Source: Carnobacteriaceae bacterium zg-C25
GTDB lineage: Bacteria > Bacillota > Bacilli > Lactobacillales > Aerococcaceae
DNA: 64,000 nucleotides
Reading direction: 5' to 3'
NCBI GenBank assembly: GCA_017945845.1
Contig: CP072828.1
Coordinates: 1,240,001 to 1,304,000 of the forward strand
Shown: positions 47,610-52,046 of the stretch, piece after piece
Layout of the letters: every line of letters begins with the position of its first letter
Numbering within the stretch: position 1 is the first letter of the stretch
Program-made: the position numbers and the translations under genes
The notes under the pieces: model-generated
Database searches by the model: none
The model's input: the letters and a program-made list of their open reading frames with translations, nothing else
What the model was told of the DNA's origin: nothing

Positions 47610-48086
47610 ATGCATCACTTTAAAATTGGTTGGCGTACGTTTAAAACCGCCCTTTCCGTATTCATTTGTCTATTATTAACTTACTCATTACAACGAGAAA
47701 CACCCGTACTAGCCTGCTTGGCCACAGTGTATTGTTTACGAACTGACCACGCTAGCACATTAAATTTTAGTGTCCATCGACTCATCGGTACTTTTGTCGG
47801 TGTATTAGTATCCATGCTTGCAATTAGTGTACAAATGCAAGTTGATTCTCACATTTTATGGCAAGCCACTATCGGCGCGCTAGGCACCATTTTGCTCATT
47901 GTCATTTGTAACGCAACTAAACACCCCGAAGGTATTATTACAGGCGTCTCTACCTTTTTTATCATTTGCTTTAATACACCTTTTACGGAAACATTCGGTT
48001 ATGCTGCCAACCGATTAATCGACGTAGCAATCGGCGCTGCCGTCGCCATCGTTGTGAATTTTATTATGCCCGGCAAAAAAAATTAA
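47610..48086 (+). CDS. Aromatic acid exporter (ArAE_1/FUSC-like) N-terminal membrane domain protein
   Basis: 158 aa. Four or five transmembrane helices and the ArAE_1 pattern are visible: MHHFKIGWRTFKTALSVFIC, then LRTDHASTLNFSVHRLIGT and the closing NRLIDVAIGAAVAIVVNFIM. Full FUSC-family exporters carry a further C-terminal cytoplasmic domain that is missing, so this is a stand-alone membrane domain, as in many Firmicutes. A decayed copy of its last 28 codons lies 220 bp downstream. Function in export is inferred only from the family. Confidence 0.8.
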   Translation: MHHFKIGWRTFKTALSVFICLLLTYSLQRETPVLACLATVYCLRTDHASTLNFSVHRLIGTFVGVLVSMLAISVQMQVDSHILWQATIGALGTILLIVICNATKHPEGIITGVSTFFIICFNTPFTETFGYAANRLIDVAIGAAVAIVVNFIMPGKKN

Positions 48087-48115
48087 CCGTGCATCAACAT
48101 ATTGTTGATAAACTT

Positions 48116-48154
48116 AAGACTGTTGACAGATTTATTTTGTCAACAGTCTTTTTA
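48116..48154 (+). terminator. Rho-independent terminator of the aromatic-acid-exporter-like gene
   Basis: AGACTGTTGACA pairs perfectly with TGTCAACAGTCT, followed by TTTTTA. A second palindrome, ATCAACA-TAT-TGTTGAT, lies just before it. Confidence 0.82.
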
Positions 48155-48169
48155 GTTTACGGTAGTTCA

Positions 48170-48318
48170 TAAAACGTATTCAAAATGGAACTCTATGCCA
48201 AATAACGTTGATAACTTATGCTACCAACCCTAAAAATGATACACTCTAATAAATTATAAGCGTACGGTTCTATATCAAATGGTGTGAGCTTTGATGAAGA
48301 ACACAAAAAACACCCCAT
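48170..48318. repeat. Intergenic sequence related to that at 51473-51608 (copy A)
   Basis: Three blocks match in the same order and orientation: 48170-48184 with 51473-51487 (15 identical), 48189-48204 with 51532-51547 (15 of 16), and 48279-48318 with 51568-51608 (both ends conserved). The two copies bracket the regulator/ABC exporter module. Confidence 0.6.
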
Positions 48319-48395
48319 TTACTAAAACCTTTGGCTACGCTGTCAATCGATTAATTGATGTCGCCATCGTTGTCAATTGTGTCATAAACGGGTAA
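48309..48395 (+). pseudogene. Decayed 3' fragment of an aromatic-acid-exporter-like gene
   Basis: Translated in one frame this gives 28 residues that start NTPFTKTFGYAVNRLIDVAI and then lose six residues relative to the intact gene's C-terminus (NTPFTETFGYAANRLIDVAIGA...), ending in a stop at the equivalent place. There is no start codon or ribosome binding site for it. It is a remnant of a tandem duplication or of a lost paralogue. Confidence 0.7.
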
Positions 48396-48460
48396 AAGAG
48401 TTAAAAGGGTGTCAACGGACTATTGATAACCTTTTTTATATTAAAATAGCACCTTATCAC

Positions 48461-48506
48461 AAAAGCCACGCCTTGATTAAACGAGACGTGGCTTACCTAT
48501 TTTTTG
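48461..48506. terminator. Hairpin between the exporter module and the pseudogene
   Basis: AAGCCACG pairs with CGTGGCTT over a 16-base loop. It has T-rich tails on both sides (ATTTTTTGC on plus, TTTTGTG on minus), so it probably ends the ABC exporter transcript. Confidence 0.55.
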
Positions 48507-48579
48507 CGATTTAATATATAATAAAATTTCTGAATTATGACATTTAAGCAAAATCGCATAATTTTATATTTTTTAAATA

Positions 48580-50181
48580 TTATTTAAATAGTTTACTGTC
48601 AATCAACTGATCAAATTTATTGATGACGTTAGGATCCGTATGATGACTCACATAAATAAGACCCACATTTTCTAAATCTAAAACAGTTTGCTCAATGGCG
48701 ACACGTGTTTCTTTATCCAACTGCGAAGTAGACTCATCAATAATAATAAAGGCAACGTTTTTAATTAAAGCACGTGCTAATGCAATTCTTTGCTTTTCTC
48801 CACCTGAAATATATTGACCATTTGAATTAAGCATCGTATCCAACCCAAATTCTTGTTTATTTATAAATGACTGTAATTTTACCGCCTGAATGATTTGATT
48901 TAAACGTTTTTCAGAAACATTTTCTCCTAACGTAATATTATCTTTAATCGTACCATTCATTAAATAAACTGACTGATCGATATACGAAATATTTTTATAA
49001 TAGGTTTTTAAATCAATTGTATGAAGATCGATATCGTTAATCTGCACTTGCCCAAATTGTGGTTTAGTTAATCCTAATATCAATTTTAACAAAGTAGATT
49101 TACCACTCCCTGATTCTCCAACAATAATGTATTTTTGATTTTTATAAAATTCAAAAGAAAAATCATCAAATAGTTTGTTATCATTATATTGTAATGCAAT
49201 ATTTTTTAATGTAATAGTCGTTAATTGTTCACTAAACGCTGGTTTTTCTTCTTTCACATACTCAAATTTGTTTAACAAAACATCTGCCGCTTTAAACGTT
49301 GACATTGCTTTTATGAAACCTTGTGCACCATTAAATAAATTACCTGCCAATGAAGCCACACTCAAAATACTACCCGCACTTGTCCAACCAATACTAACAA
49401 GAAATAAAGCGAAAGCAAGCAACCCAATTTGTGACATCAATGACATCAAAAGCATAATGCTACCAACTTTTGCTTGTGTCATTGAAAAACTAAAATATTG
49501 TTTTTCTCTTAATTCAATTGCTTTTTGCACATTATTTTTAAATTGAGTTAATGCACCACCAATAAAAAACACTCCCAAACCTTCAAAATTATCTCTAATC
49601 GATTCAGTATATTTCTCATTAGCGTCAGTATATTCACTTTGTGCCTTAACAATATAGCGCTGTGTGACATTTGGAAGAATTAAAATAACACAAAGAAATA
49701 CTAATGACACTACAGCAATAATCCAATGCAATAAAAATAAAGATGCAATCGCGCTAATTACAATTGTGAAAAGATAAATAGCACTAATAAAATTAGAAAA
49801 TGCCTGTGATTCTATTTGACCAGCATCATTAATAAACCATGACATTGCTTTACCGGTATCCCGTATCGCTATTAAATCATAAGAATGATCCATAACACTA
49901 TCCGCCATTTTTAATTTTAGTGTCCGATTTGTTTTTCTAATGTATTTTGCTTTAAAATAATCCGATAAAAATGATAATAAAATGGTCACCGCCACAATAA
50001 CACCTACCAACATCATCGCATTATAAAATTCATATTGATTCGACTGATAAGCATCAAATAAAAATGTTAAAGAATACGATACTAATGTGACTGACAGTGC
50101 GTATAAAATATTGAACAGTATCGCTAAAGTCGTTTCTTTACTATTTTCCTTAATAATACGAATAAAAAGTTTATTGGTCAT
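48580..50181 (-). CDS. ABC exporter, fused membrane and ATPase domains
   Basis: 533 aa half-transporter. Six transmembrane helices lie within residues 15-290 and the nucleotide-binding domain within 320-530. Walker A is GESGSGKST, the signature ISGGEKQR, Walker B FIIIDEST with catalytic Glu, and the H-loop VSHH. No peptidase C39 domain is present. Such ABC exporters move drugs, lipids or peptides; nothing shows which. AT-rich compared with neighbours (many AAA/TTA/ATT codons), suggesting acquisition. Its ATG overlaps the upstream regulator gene by 11 bases. Confidence 0.85.
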   Translation of the reverse strand: MTNKLFIRIIKENSKETTLAILFNILYALSVTLVSYSLTFLFDAYQSNQYEFYNAMMLVGVIVAVTILLSFLSDYFKAKYIRKTNRTLKLKMADSVMDHSYDLIAIRDTGKAMSWFINDAGQIESQAFSNFISAIYLFTIVISAIASLFLLHWIIAVVSLVFLCVILILPNVTQRYIVKAQSEYTDANEKYTESIRDNFEGLGVFFIGGALTQFKNNVQKAIELREKQYFSFSMTQAKVGSIMLLMSLMSQIGLLAFALFLVSIGWTSAGSILSVASLAGNLFNGAQGFIKAMSTFKAADVLLNKFEYVKEEKPAFSEQLTTITLKNIALQYNDNKLFDDFSFEFYKNQKYIIVGESGSGKSTLLKLILGLTKPQFGQVQINDIDLHTIDLKTYYKNISYIDQSVYLMNGTIKDNITLGENVSEKRLNQIIQAVKLQSFINKQEFGLDTMLNSNGQYISGGEKQRIALARALIKNVAFIIIDESTSQLDKETRVAIEQTVLDLENVGLIYVSHHTDPNVINKFDQLIDSKLFK

Positions 50182-51256
50182 AGTCGTTTCCTCCTAGATG
50201 TTTCAAAAATAGACTCATTCTATTTAATTCTAATGAATTGATACTATAGTAAATTCTCTTCCCTCTAATTTCTGAATTAATCATTTTTTCCTGTAATAAA
50301 TTAGATAGATGATAACTAATTGTCCCCGATGACACTGATAGTTTTTCTGAAATTTCGCGACCAAACATTGCTCTTTTTGATAAAAGAATCAGAATATTAA
50401 AACGTGTCATATCTGAAAGTAATGTAAATTTAGTAAGCATATCATCTTGTTCTTCAGATATAGGTTTAAATTCGTTATACACCAAAAACGGTATCGCTCC
50501 TAAAAATAAAAAGCCTTGTTTTTCATTTTTGTTATCAAAAACCACACTAAATCCATAAAATTCTGTAAATTGAAGAAATACTGTCGTTTCTAGATAATCA
50601 ATTTCATAACTCTCTATAACTGACTTTAAATTGATTTCTGGATTTATATCCATGAAATTTATATTTTCCATTTGTGAGTATAATGTCTTTAAATTTTCGC
50701 GAATAATATGTTCATGTTTTTTAATTATATTTTCTAATTTTAAAAGTAAATCGTATACATCATCAAAAAAACCATTAATATTATGTATTAATTTATAAAT
50801 GGCATATCTCTGTTGTTCGCTAAATAAAGATAATTTGTCGAGTTCTTCAAAAGTAAATTTTTCTGTTATATCAAATCCTAATGCCTGCATATTTTTTATA
50901 AAATCTTCCTTAATTTTATAAAACAACTCTATATGCGAGTATTCTTTAATGCTCTGTTTAAATTTTGAATACGTTAAAAAATAAACAACTTCGGGTGTTT
51001 TGTGAGTTTCAAAATTTTGAAATAATAAATCAATACCTAAAAAATTTTTTAATAGTTTTCTAGCTTCAAATCTAATAGATTTTAAAAACATGATAAATTC
51101 TTGATTCTTTTGATTTATCGTAGCTTTAGATACTCCAATTTTATTATACTCTATAGATAACTCGGCATCTTTCTCTTCGCTAGTATTACAAATATATGTC
51201 GCTAATAGTAAAGCTTCATTTAAATAATTAATTTTAGTATTGAAAATAACGTTCAT
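50171..51256 (-). CDS. Large ArsR-type winged-helix regulator with unknown N-terminal domain
   Basis: 361 aa. The last 80 residues are an ArsR/HTH_5 winged helix: LLSDMTRFNILILLSKRAMFGREISEKLSVSSGTISYHLSNLL, then a wing with EIRGKRIYYSI. The first 270 residues are predicted mostly helical and match no domain I can name; they are lysine- and isoleucine-rich. Typical ArsR proteins are about 100 residues, so this is a fused form that may sense a ligand. Co-transcribed with the ABC exporter (11-base overlap), so it probably controls export. The ribosome binding site is weak. Confidence 0.78.
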   Translation of the reverse strand: MNVIFNTKINYLNEALLLATYICNTSEEKDAELSIEYNKIGVSKATINQKNQEFIMFLKSIRFEARKLLKNFLGIDLLFQNFETHKTPEVVYFLTYSKFKQSIKEYSHIELFYKIKEDFIKNMQALGFDITEKFTFEELDKLSLFSEQQRYAIYKLIHNINGFFDDVYDLLLKLENIIKKHEHIIRENLKTLYSQMENINFMDINPEINLKSVIESYEIDYLETTVFLQFTEFYGFSVVFDNKNEKQGFLFLGAIPFLVYNEFKPISEEQDDMLTKFTLLSDMTRFNILILLSKRAMFGREISEKLSVSSGTISYHLSNLLQEKMINSEIRGKRIYYSINSLELNRMSLFLKHLGGNDYDQ

Positions 51257-51337
51257 TTCAACTCATAAAAGGCTATTCTAATTCAAATTTGTATCAGTGA
51301 TATTGAGAATCATAAATATCCCTTTTTCCTCTCTAAA

Positions 51338-51383
51338 TTTTATATTTATAAAATTTTAATTCCTTATTTTTATAAATATAAAA
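51338..51383. promoter_or_regulatory. Perfect 16-bp inverted repeat over the regulator/exporter promoter, candidate operator
   Basis: Arms 51338-51353 and 51368-51383 are exact reverse complements (TTTTATATTTATAAAA and partner) with a 14-base spacer. The right arm runs into the predicted -10 box, so a repressor bound here would cover the start site. The product of the first gene is the natural candidate. Confidence 0.6.
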
Positions 51384-51408
51384 TAACATAACATTCTATG
51401 GTCGTCAA
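51380..51408 (-). promoter_or_regulatory. Predicted promoter of the regulator/ABC exporter operon
   Basis: Minus strand TTGACG (51403-51408), 17-bp spacer, TATTTT (51380-51385). It is 124 bp before the regulator ATG. Confidence 0.5.
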
Positions 51409-51472
51409 ACAAAACAGTTTAATTTTTATAAAACTCAAAAAACTAACTTTTAAAATAAGTAACGACCGTATT

Positions 51473-51608
51473 TAAAACGTATTCAAACACAACAAGCACC
51501 TTTCCCAAAATTGAGAAAAGTGCTTGAAATTAACTCTATGTCAAATAGTGTAAATTTGGTGTAAAAAATGGTATGAACTTTCCTAAAAATCAGCAAAAAA
51601 CACCCCAT
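51473..51608. repeat. Intergenic sequence related to that at 48170-48318 (copy B)
   Basis: Contains the same three ordered blocks as copy A. Here a hairpin (AAGCAC...GTGCTT, about 51495-51524) is inserted between the first two blocks, and the third block forms one arm of the rpsI terminator. Confidence 0.6.
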
Positions 51609-51629
51609 GGTGTGAACCATGGGGTGTTT
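51595..51629 (-). terminator. Rho-independent terminator of rplM-rpsI
   Basis: AAACACCCCATGG pairs perfectly with CCATGGGGTGTTT around a 6-base loop, followed by T-run on the minus strand. Confidence 0.88.
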
Positions 51630-51653
51630 GAAACTGTTGATATAAAAATAATA

Positions 51654-52046
51654 TTAACGTTTTGAGAACTGGCTAGCTTTACGAGCTGCTTTAAGACCTG
51701 GTTTTTTACGTTCTTTCATACGTGGGTCACGTGTTAATAAGCCTGCAGCTTTTAACACGCCACGGAAATCTGGGTCTACTTGTAACAACGCGCGTGAAAT
51801 ACCGTGACGAGCTGCTCCAGCTTGTCCAGTGAATCCACCACCGTTTACGTTAACGAAAACGTCGTAGTTACCTAAAGTTTGTGTTAAGTTTAATGGTTGT
51901 TTAACCACTTCATGTAAGTAAGCGAATGGGATGTATTCTTCGATGTCTTTTTTGTTGAAGACGATTTTCCCTGTTCCTGGTACTAAACGTACACGAGCAG
52001 TTGAATGTTTACGGCGACCAGTGCCGATGTATTGAACAGTTGCCAA
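51654..52046 (-). CDS. rpsI: 30S ribosomal protein S9
   Basis: 130 aa, full length. It opens [23 protein letters not shown] and ends with the basic tail [17 protein letters not shown] that reaches the P-site tRNA. The start codon is TTG: the sequence is AGGAGG, eight bases, TTG GCA ACT, and no ATG occurs in frame upstream before the rplM stop. It follows rplM by 25 bp. Confidence 0.96.

Follow-up and report, generated by a model that had tools for sequence, protein, structure and literature searches.

ArsR/SmtB repressors such as SmtB, CzrA and SrnR combine a winged-helix fold with a palindromic site at the promoter, and the DNA sites recognised by dimers of the ArsR type are palindromes, in many cases with 2 bp at the centre. 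DUF5937 (PF19361)-ArsR proteins carry an N-terminal region of about 260 residues followed by an ArsR-type winged helix, and some of them adjoin exporters (EamA, ABC-2, MFS). The sole full-text literature match for DUF5937 was a machine-learning assessment of salmonellosis severity (PMC12440251), in which the term occurs twice, and no paper on the long ArsR-type group considered below was among the matches listed for ArsR and exporter literature. For the exporters of Rgg-controlled systems, passages of PMC9765709 name PptAB as the SHP exporter and give no description of adjacent exporters.

The locus analysed here lies in a 64-kb window (the whole stretch of DNA under analysis), carried on a single contig of 1.42 Mb. 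It pairs an ArsR-type regulator with an ABC exporter:

48580-50181, minus strand: ABC protein gene, 533 aa, predicted ABCB-type half-exporter
50171-51256, minus strand: regulator gene, 361 aa, helical N-terminal region and C-terminal ArsR-type winged helix
50432-51256, minus strand: N-terminal region of the regulator (residues 1-275), for which a low-confidence model shows mainly helices, and three strands ahead of the winged helix
50207-50431, minus strand: ArsR-type winged helix (residues 276-350), from Pfam, NCBIfam and structure search

Both ORFs are as the original prediction described them, a 361-residue ArsR-type regulator and an ABC exporter (ORF list, Pfam), and the predicted 11-base overlap of the two genes is found at 50171-50181. 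On the minus strand the regulator gene comes first and the exporter gene then. The pair is flanked upstream by rpsI, named by eye from its sequence, and at the other side by a FUSC-family gene on the opposite strand. Each part of the module is of a known kind, and a pump together with its controlling regulator is a familiar arrangement.

The HTH_5 winged helix is the sole recognised domain of the regulator (Pfam, E 1.8e-7 at residues 283-327; 31.3 bits against a cut-off of 22). In the NCBIfam SdpR and metalloregulator models the protein scored below cut-off, at 51.9 against 55 for the metalloregulator. The winged helix begins near residue 276. Over residues 1-275 Pfam gave nothing below E 0.42 and NCBIfam listed no match, in keeping with the expectation of an unrecognised stretch before the winged helix. 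Mean pLDDT of the predicted structure is 62, with blocks of 81-96 over residues 271-350 and low confidence in the N-terminal part. The modelled winged helix matches ArsR-family structures, e.g. 2oqg and 7p6f (for 2oqg_C, rmsd 1.7 over 89 columns, Foldseek E 3.8e-4). An Alkaliphilus relative (L069) was predicted with a pLDDT of 81.9 as a mostly helical region, three strands and a winged helix, and in its structure search the winged helix likewise matched ArsR-family structures. In these searches the winged helix filled the matches listed; the N-terminal fold was thus barely tested and is not to be called new. This region is presumed to be the ligand-sensing part. Unlike the ArsR/SmtB repressors, the regulator is about three times longer and has no cysteine in the winged helix (residues 276-350) and one in the whole protein; the lack in the winged helix makes a metal sensor of the classical kind less likely.

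A search of the phylum at E 1e-8 matched the regulator in 33 of 398 genomes, its own included. Most of the other matches are ordinary proteins of approximately 90-130 aa, and 11 have open frames of 339-407 codons. Additionally, 73 loci came from scanning named genomes; long members were judged to be present at 15 of them, including those of Halanaerobium, Alkaliphilus peptidifermentans and Lutispora thermophila. The N-terminal region of the window protein matches that of 20 other long members when these are pooled (profile match probability 93.1). The pooled N-terminal regions in turn match seven DUF5937 proteins, with a probability of 93.4 over 226 columns when the window protein is included and 96.3 when it is not (reversed controls 0.1 and 0.3). 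The window protein alone gave 0.1 against the DUF5937 alignment, and 0.8 with its three allies L059, L062 and L061; the DUF5937 link therefore rests on the pooled alignment. Single-protein testing covered part of the 20 long members. Against the Halanaerobium-type subset, the four-row alignment of the window protein and its allies gave a weak 3.1 and the window protein alone 16.1. Pfam PF19361 did not list the window protein at E 1, had no match in its genome and was found in 1 of the 14 members of set A3 (E 0.0043).

Judged by these comparisons, the regulator belongs, as a divergent member, to a broad and poorly annotated group of Bacillota proteins of approximately 340-400 aa with a C-terminal ArsR-type winged helix, and the group appears related to DUF5937 when pooled. 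It resembles the DUF5937-ArsR proteins in size and layout, yet joins them only through other long members. The proposed search of domains and structures with the N-terminal region thus yielded no library match for the protein alone, but a match to DUF5937 for the pooled long relatives. Likewise, the extension of about 270 residues, put forward as an oddity, does make the protein longer than a usual ArsR, but is not peculiar to it, being shared with a widespread group whose pooled sequences match DUF5937. A one-off fusion can be set aside for this regulator.

Genomic neighbours were inspected for 16 groups of long members formed at 50 % identity, the window included. In 7 of them the regulator has a transporter of efflux type as its neighbour: an ABC transporter in the window and in L059/L062, L060/L061 and L038, and an MFS transporter in L041, L069 and L042. 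The other nine (Halanaerobium, L066, L018/L024, L071/L082, L092/L095, L033, L020, L039 and L065) are without such a neighbour, on neighbours scanned or judged by eye; L039 is counted here as a presumed relative. The Halanaerobium member adjoins a small protein with no Pfam match, and those of L092/L095 are divergent from the gene of an SBP_bac_5 solute-binding protein, of importer type. The pairing of regulator and exporter across genomes was therefore recovered in part of the group and not seen in the rest. Since the relatives were gathered with the window protein as query, they form a biased sample, and 7 of 16 is a count for this sample. For the DUF5937 proteins, with one neighbour scanned each, 3 of 6 lie beside an EamA, ABC-2 or MFS gene. 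One DUF5937-ArsR protein from the same order (L132, 760-2729) is located directly after an EamA transporter gene. In L059 (6769-8683) and L062 (6648-8454) the ABC gene that directly follows the regulator is broken into two ORFs, at much the same position in both, through a frameshift, a split gene or an assembly effect.

The exporter carries ABC_membrane and ABC_tran domains on one chain (Pfam), with complete Walker A, signature, Walker B and H-loop motifs. ABCB chains are among its best PDB matches, and CydD/CydC thiol-exporter models among its best NCBIfam matches, far below cut-offs. By sequence it is an ABCB-type half-transporter. PADLOC matches that might have indicated a defence system fall on the winged helix and mainly on the ATPase part of the exporter (mad3, E 1.4e-23) and were read as generic.

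At 1e-50, exporter matches were found in 54 of the 295 genomes of the order, its own included, and neighbourhoods were inspected at 29 loci from the best other genomes. The exporter relatives there are approximately 530 aa long and 26–31 % identical to the window exporter. An Rgg-like regulator is located within 1.5 kb of the exporter relative at 21 of the 29 loci, with that of L139 a weaker match; Rgg_C was confirmed by Pfam in all 10 of the Rgg-like proteins tested. The profile that detects them was built from nine of these same loci; when it was divided into two half-models, one found 17 of the 25 loci outside its own set and the other 16 of 24. As a control, 23 loci of the same order taken for other reasons (124 kb, some overlapping) gave one place, a 106-aa XRE-like protein. 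Of 20 Rgg-exporter pairs whose orientation was measured, 16 are divergent, 3 lie on one strand and 1 is convergent. The exporter relative of L160 has a short ArsR-type regulator instead of Rgg.

Exporter relatives also occur in eight plasmid records. All three that were opened have a gene or fragment for RamC_N (class III lanthipeptide synthetase) nearby, and two of the three an annotated Rgg/GadR/MutR gene. RamC_N has no match in the genome of the window, where no synthetase gene lies beside the module, so class III lanthipeptide genes were discarded as a candidate for this genome. No Rgg-like ORF is present in the 64-kb window. The window exporter is thus similar in size to the Rgg-associated half-exporters of Lactobacillales, but its partner is an N-extended ArsR protein whose gene overlaps its own. 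The N-extended regulator sits where Rgg is usually found next to the closest-matching exporters in the order. Because identity to the relatives is only 26–31 %, a substrate cannot be transferred from them; our best guess is a peptide or peptide-like drug.

Ahead of the regulator gene the following features were located:

51278-51313, minus strand: possible 11-codon leader ORF, MILNITDTNLN (candidate)
51335-51356: palindrome 10-2-10 (AAATTTTATA TT TATAAAATTT) lying downstream of the -10 box, candidate operator half 1
51368-51384: upstream arm of a 17-bp inverted repeat, proposed operator half 2, overlapping the putative -10 box
51408-51380, minus strand: promoter-like site TTGACG-17 nt-TATTTT, with TG before the second hexamer (extended -10 type)

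The two 17-bp arms of the inverted repeat, 51337-51353 and 51368-51384, match perfectly and are separated by 14 nt. Arms of 17 bp were reached in 0 of 300 dinucleotide shuffles, in which the longest perfect arm was 13. The promoter-like site runs into the upstream arm. Of the promoter with a -10 box entering a perfect 16-bp repeat that had been predicted, the perfection of the repeat and its overlap with the putative -10 box hold, but the arms are 17 bp and the promoter match taken alone is at chance level, with 25 matches of such strength in 48000-51700 against 24.3 expected from shuffles. Within the upstream arm a second palindrome, 7-2-7 (TTTTATA AA TATAAAA), was read by eye at 51368-51383. 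The centres of the two palindromes are approximately 30 bp apart, about three helix turns; given this spacing and the palindromes with a 2-bp centre that ArsR dimers bind, two regulator dimers on one DNA face would be a natural guess. A purine-rich stretch resembling a ribosome-binding site at 51321-51333 could serve the possible leader ORF, and no clear ribosome-binding site was seen by eye for the regulator ATG at 51256. A leader RNA acting as a structured switch was rejected (z -0.67; 48 of 200 shuffles fold as well).

Fifteen upstream regions of relatives were compared in the same way. L059, the best-scoring relative, has a perfect 16-bp inverted repeat upstream of its regulator-ABC-ABC row, and L041 a 12-bp inverted repeat upstream of its MFS-regulator pair (0 of 100 shuffles in both cases). 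The only others to beat all 100 shuffles, L071 and L082, have their repeats between the long regulator and an hrcA gene that is divergent from it (Pfam identifies HrcA in L071). These are presumably HrcA-type CIRCE elements, and for that reason are not to be counted for the long regulator. The remaining 11 of the 15 regions showed no repeat clearly above shuffles, L042 being the nearest miss (8 of 100). With 4 of 15 beating shuffles and two of these CIRCE-like, an inverted repeat was rejected as a general rule of the group.

In base composition the two genes stand apart from their surroundings. GC is 0.249 for the regulator gene and 0.298 for the exporter gene, both under every other ORF of 150 aa or more in the window (49 ORFs; mean 0.379, sd 0.023, minimum 0.308), and GC3 is 0.188 and 0.221, respectively. 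The possibility that GC would equal that of the surroundings is thereby set aside. The A+T-richness claimed for the pair is borne out by GC. Its synonymous codon usage deviates as well, but is not unique: when 51 genes are ordered by how far they depart from the remainder of the window, these two come 3rd and 6th. Codon usage is thus a weak argument for foreign origin, as other window genes deviate as much.

Distribution of the regulator is patchy. At E 1e-10 it was found in its own genome alone among 76 genomes of the family, and at E 1e-8 in 5 of 395 genomes of the order, its own included. In one of these five (G029, same family) the match is a long relative of 27 % identity, immediately next to an MFS transporter. 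Neither of the two other genomes of the genus has a regulator match, although rpsI is present in both; different genes adjoin rpsI there and the FUSC gene is located elsewhere. Synteny is accordingly not conserved in all relatives. No confirmed relative of the regulator was found in viral contigs, or in genome contigs searched with single-protein patterns. A phage search gave no match to the regulator and a plasmid search one weak match, over the winged helix. Base composition together with the patchy distribution suggests that the operon was probably acquired horizontally, at a rearranged site; loss in relatives is the alternative.

Several repeated sequences are apparent around the module. 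Beside it, at 48306-48386, the 3′ end of the FUSC gene is present a second time in decayed form (74 % protein identity over residues 121-153), and the DNA repeats 48042-48115 and 48360-48433 are 72 % identical. The palindrome AAGACTGTTGACA...TGTCAACAGTCTT at 48116-48150 recurs in both orientations at no fewer than 24 other places in the genome, a lower bound as 40 of 95 candidates were scored, and may be a dispersed terminator or a REP-like element. In the same intergenic region, 48182-48255 is 76–95 % identical over short stretches to at least 12 other genome places, which suggests a second dispersed extragenic repeat.

The reading that we favour, with moderate confidence and from sequence, is a two-gene operon, probably acquired horizontally, in which an exporter of peptides or drugs is controlled by an autorepressor that a substrate-like ligand releases. 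The regulator, probably as a dimer through its ArsR-type winged helix, would bind the two AT-rich palindromes over the -10 box and start region and repress its own operon. A toxic amphipathic compound, the peptide or drug carried by the exporter, would enter the cell and be bound by the helical N-terminal domain; the ligand-bound regulator would leave the DNA, both genes would be made, and a homodimer of the half-exporter would expel the compound. Dimer binding, repression rather than activation, the ligand, the substrate and the direction of transport are all elements that we infer. The original prediction of a self-regulated export system survives as the best reading, because the genes overlap, an exceptional repeat lies on a promoter-like site and exporters recur as neighbours.

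Many Rgg proteins are ligand-dependent activators at their own promoter, and the regulator could act in the same way, with bound inducer recruiting polymerase there. The prevalence of Rgg-type regulators beside the exporter relatives (21 of 29 loci) is consistent with this, as is HlyU, an ArsR-type winged-helix protein named an activator, among the PDB matches. However, the repeat covers the -10 box and continues downstream from it, which is a repressor position, and the N-terminal region compared with the C-terminal part of Rgg gave probabilities of 0.1 (pooled), 0.1 (window) and 0.3 (one subset), with 0.2-1.3 for reversed sequences. In the absence of any profile match, an Rgg-type helical repeat was rejected for this region, and activation is considered unlikely. 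It is quite unlikely, too, that the regulator controls other genes, the exporter being a chance downstream neighbour and the repeat a DNA or RNA structural element. The 9 of 16 groups lacking an efflux-type neighbour and the possible small ORF in the leader would fit such an arrangement; the 11-base overlap, a leader RNA that folds no better than shuffles (z -0.67) and the recurrence of ABC, MFS and, for DUF5937 proteins, EamA exporters in different groups argue against it.

A metal or thiol stress operon, governed by a metalloregulator of the usual ArsR/SmtB kind to which an odd tail is attached N-terminally, would account for the ArsR-type winged helix, the near-threshold NCBIfam metalloregulator score (51.9 against 55) and the distant CydD/CydC matches of the exporter. 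We regard it as very improbable: the winged helix has no cysteine and the whole protein one, although histidine/carboxylate metal sites could be present, and the partner is an ABCB-type exporter, neither a metal P-type ATPase nor a diffusion facilitator. A bolder and improbable suggestion is that the helical N-terminal domain serves in the cytoplasm as a receptor for a peptide or lanthipeptide, having taken over from Rgg before a peptide-type exporter; the family would then be an undescribed class of direct peptide sensors. If true, such a peptide-receptor unit would give immunity or resistance to the antimicrobial peptide of a neighbour.

What may prove useful is the group to which the locus points: ArsR-type regulators of extended length whose helical domain is uncharacterised, present in many genomes of Bacillota and often beside exporters of drug or peptide type. 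A structure or a ligand for one long member would inform many.
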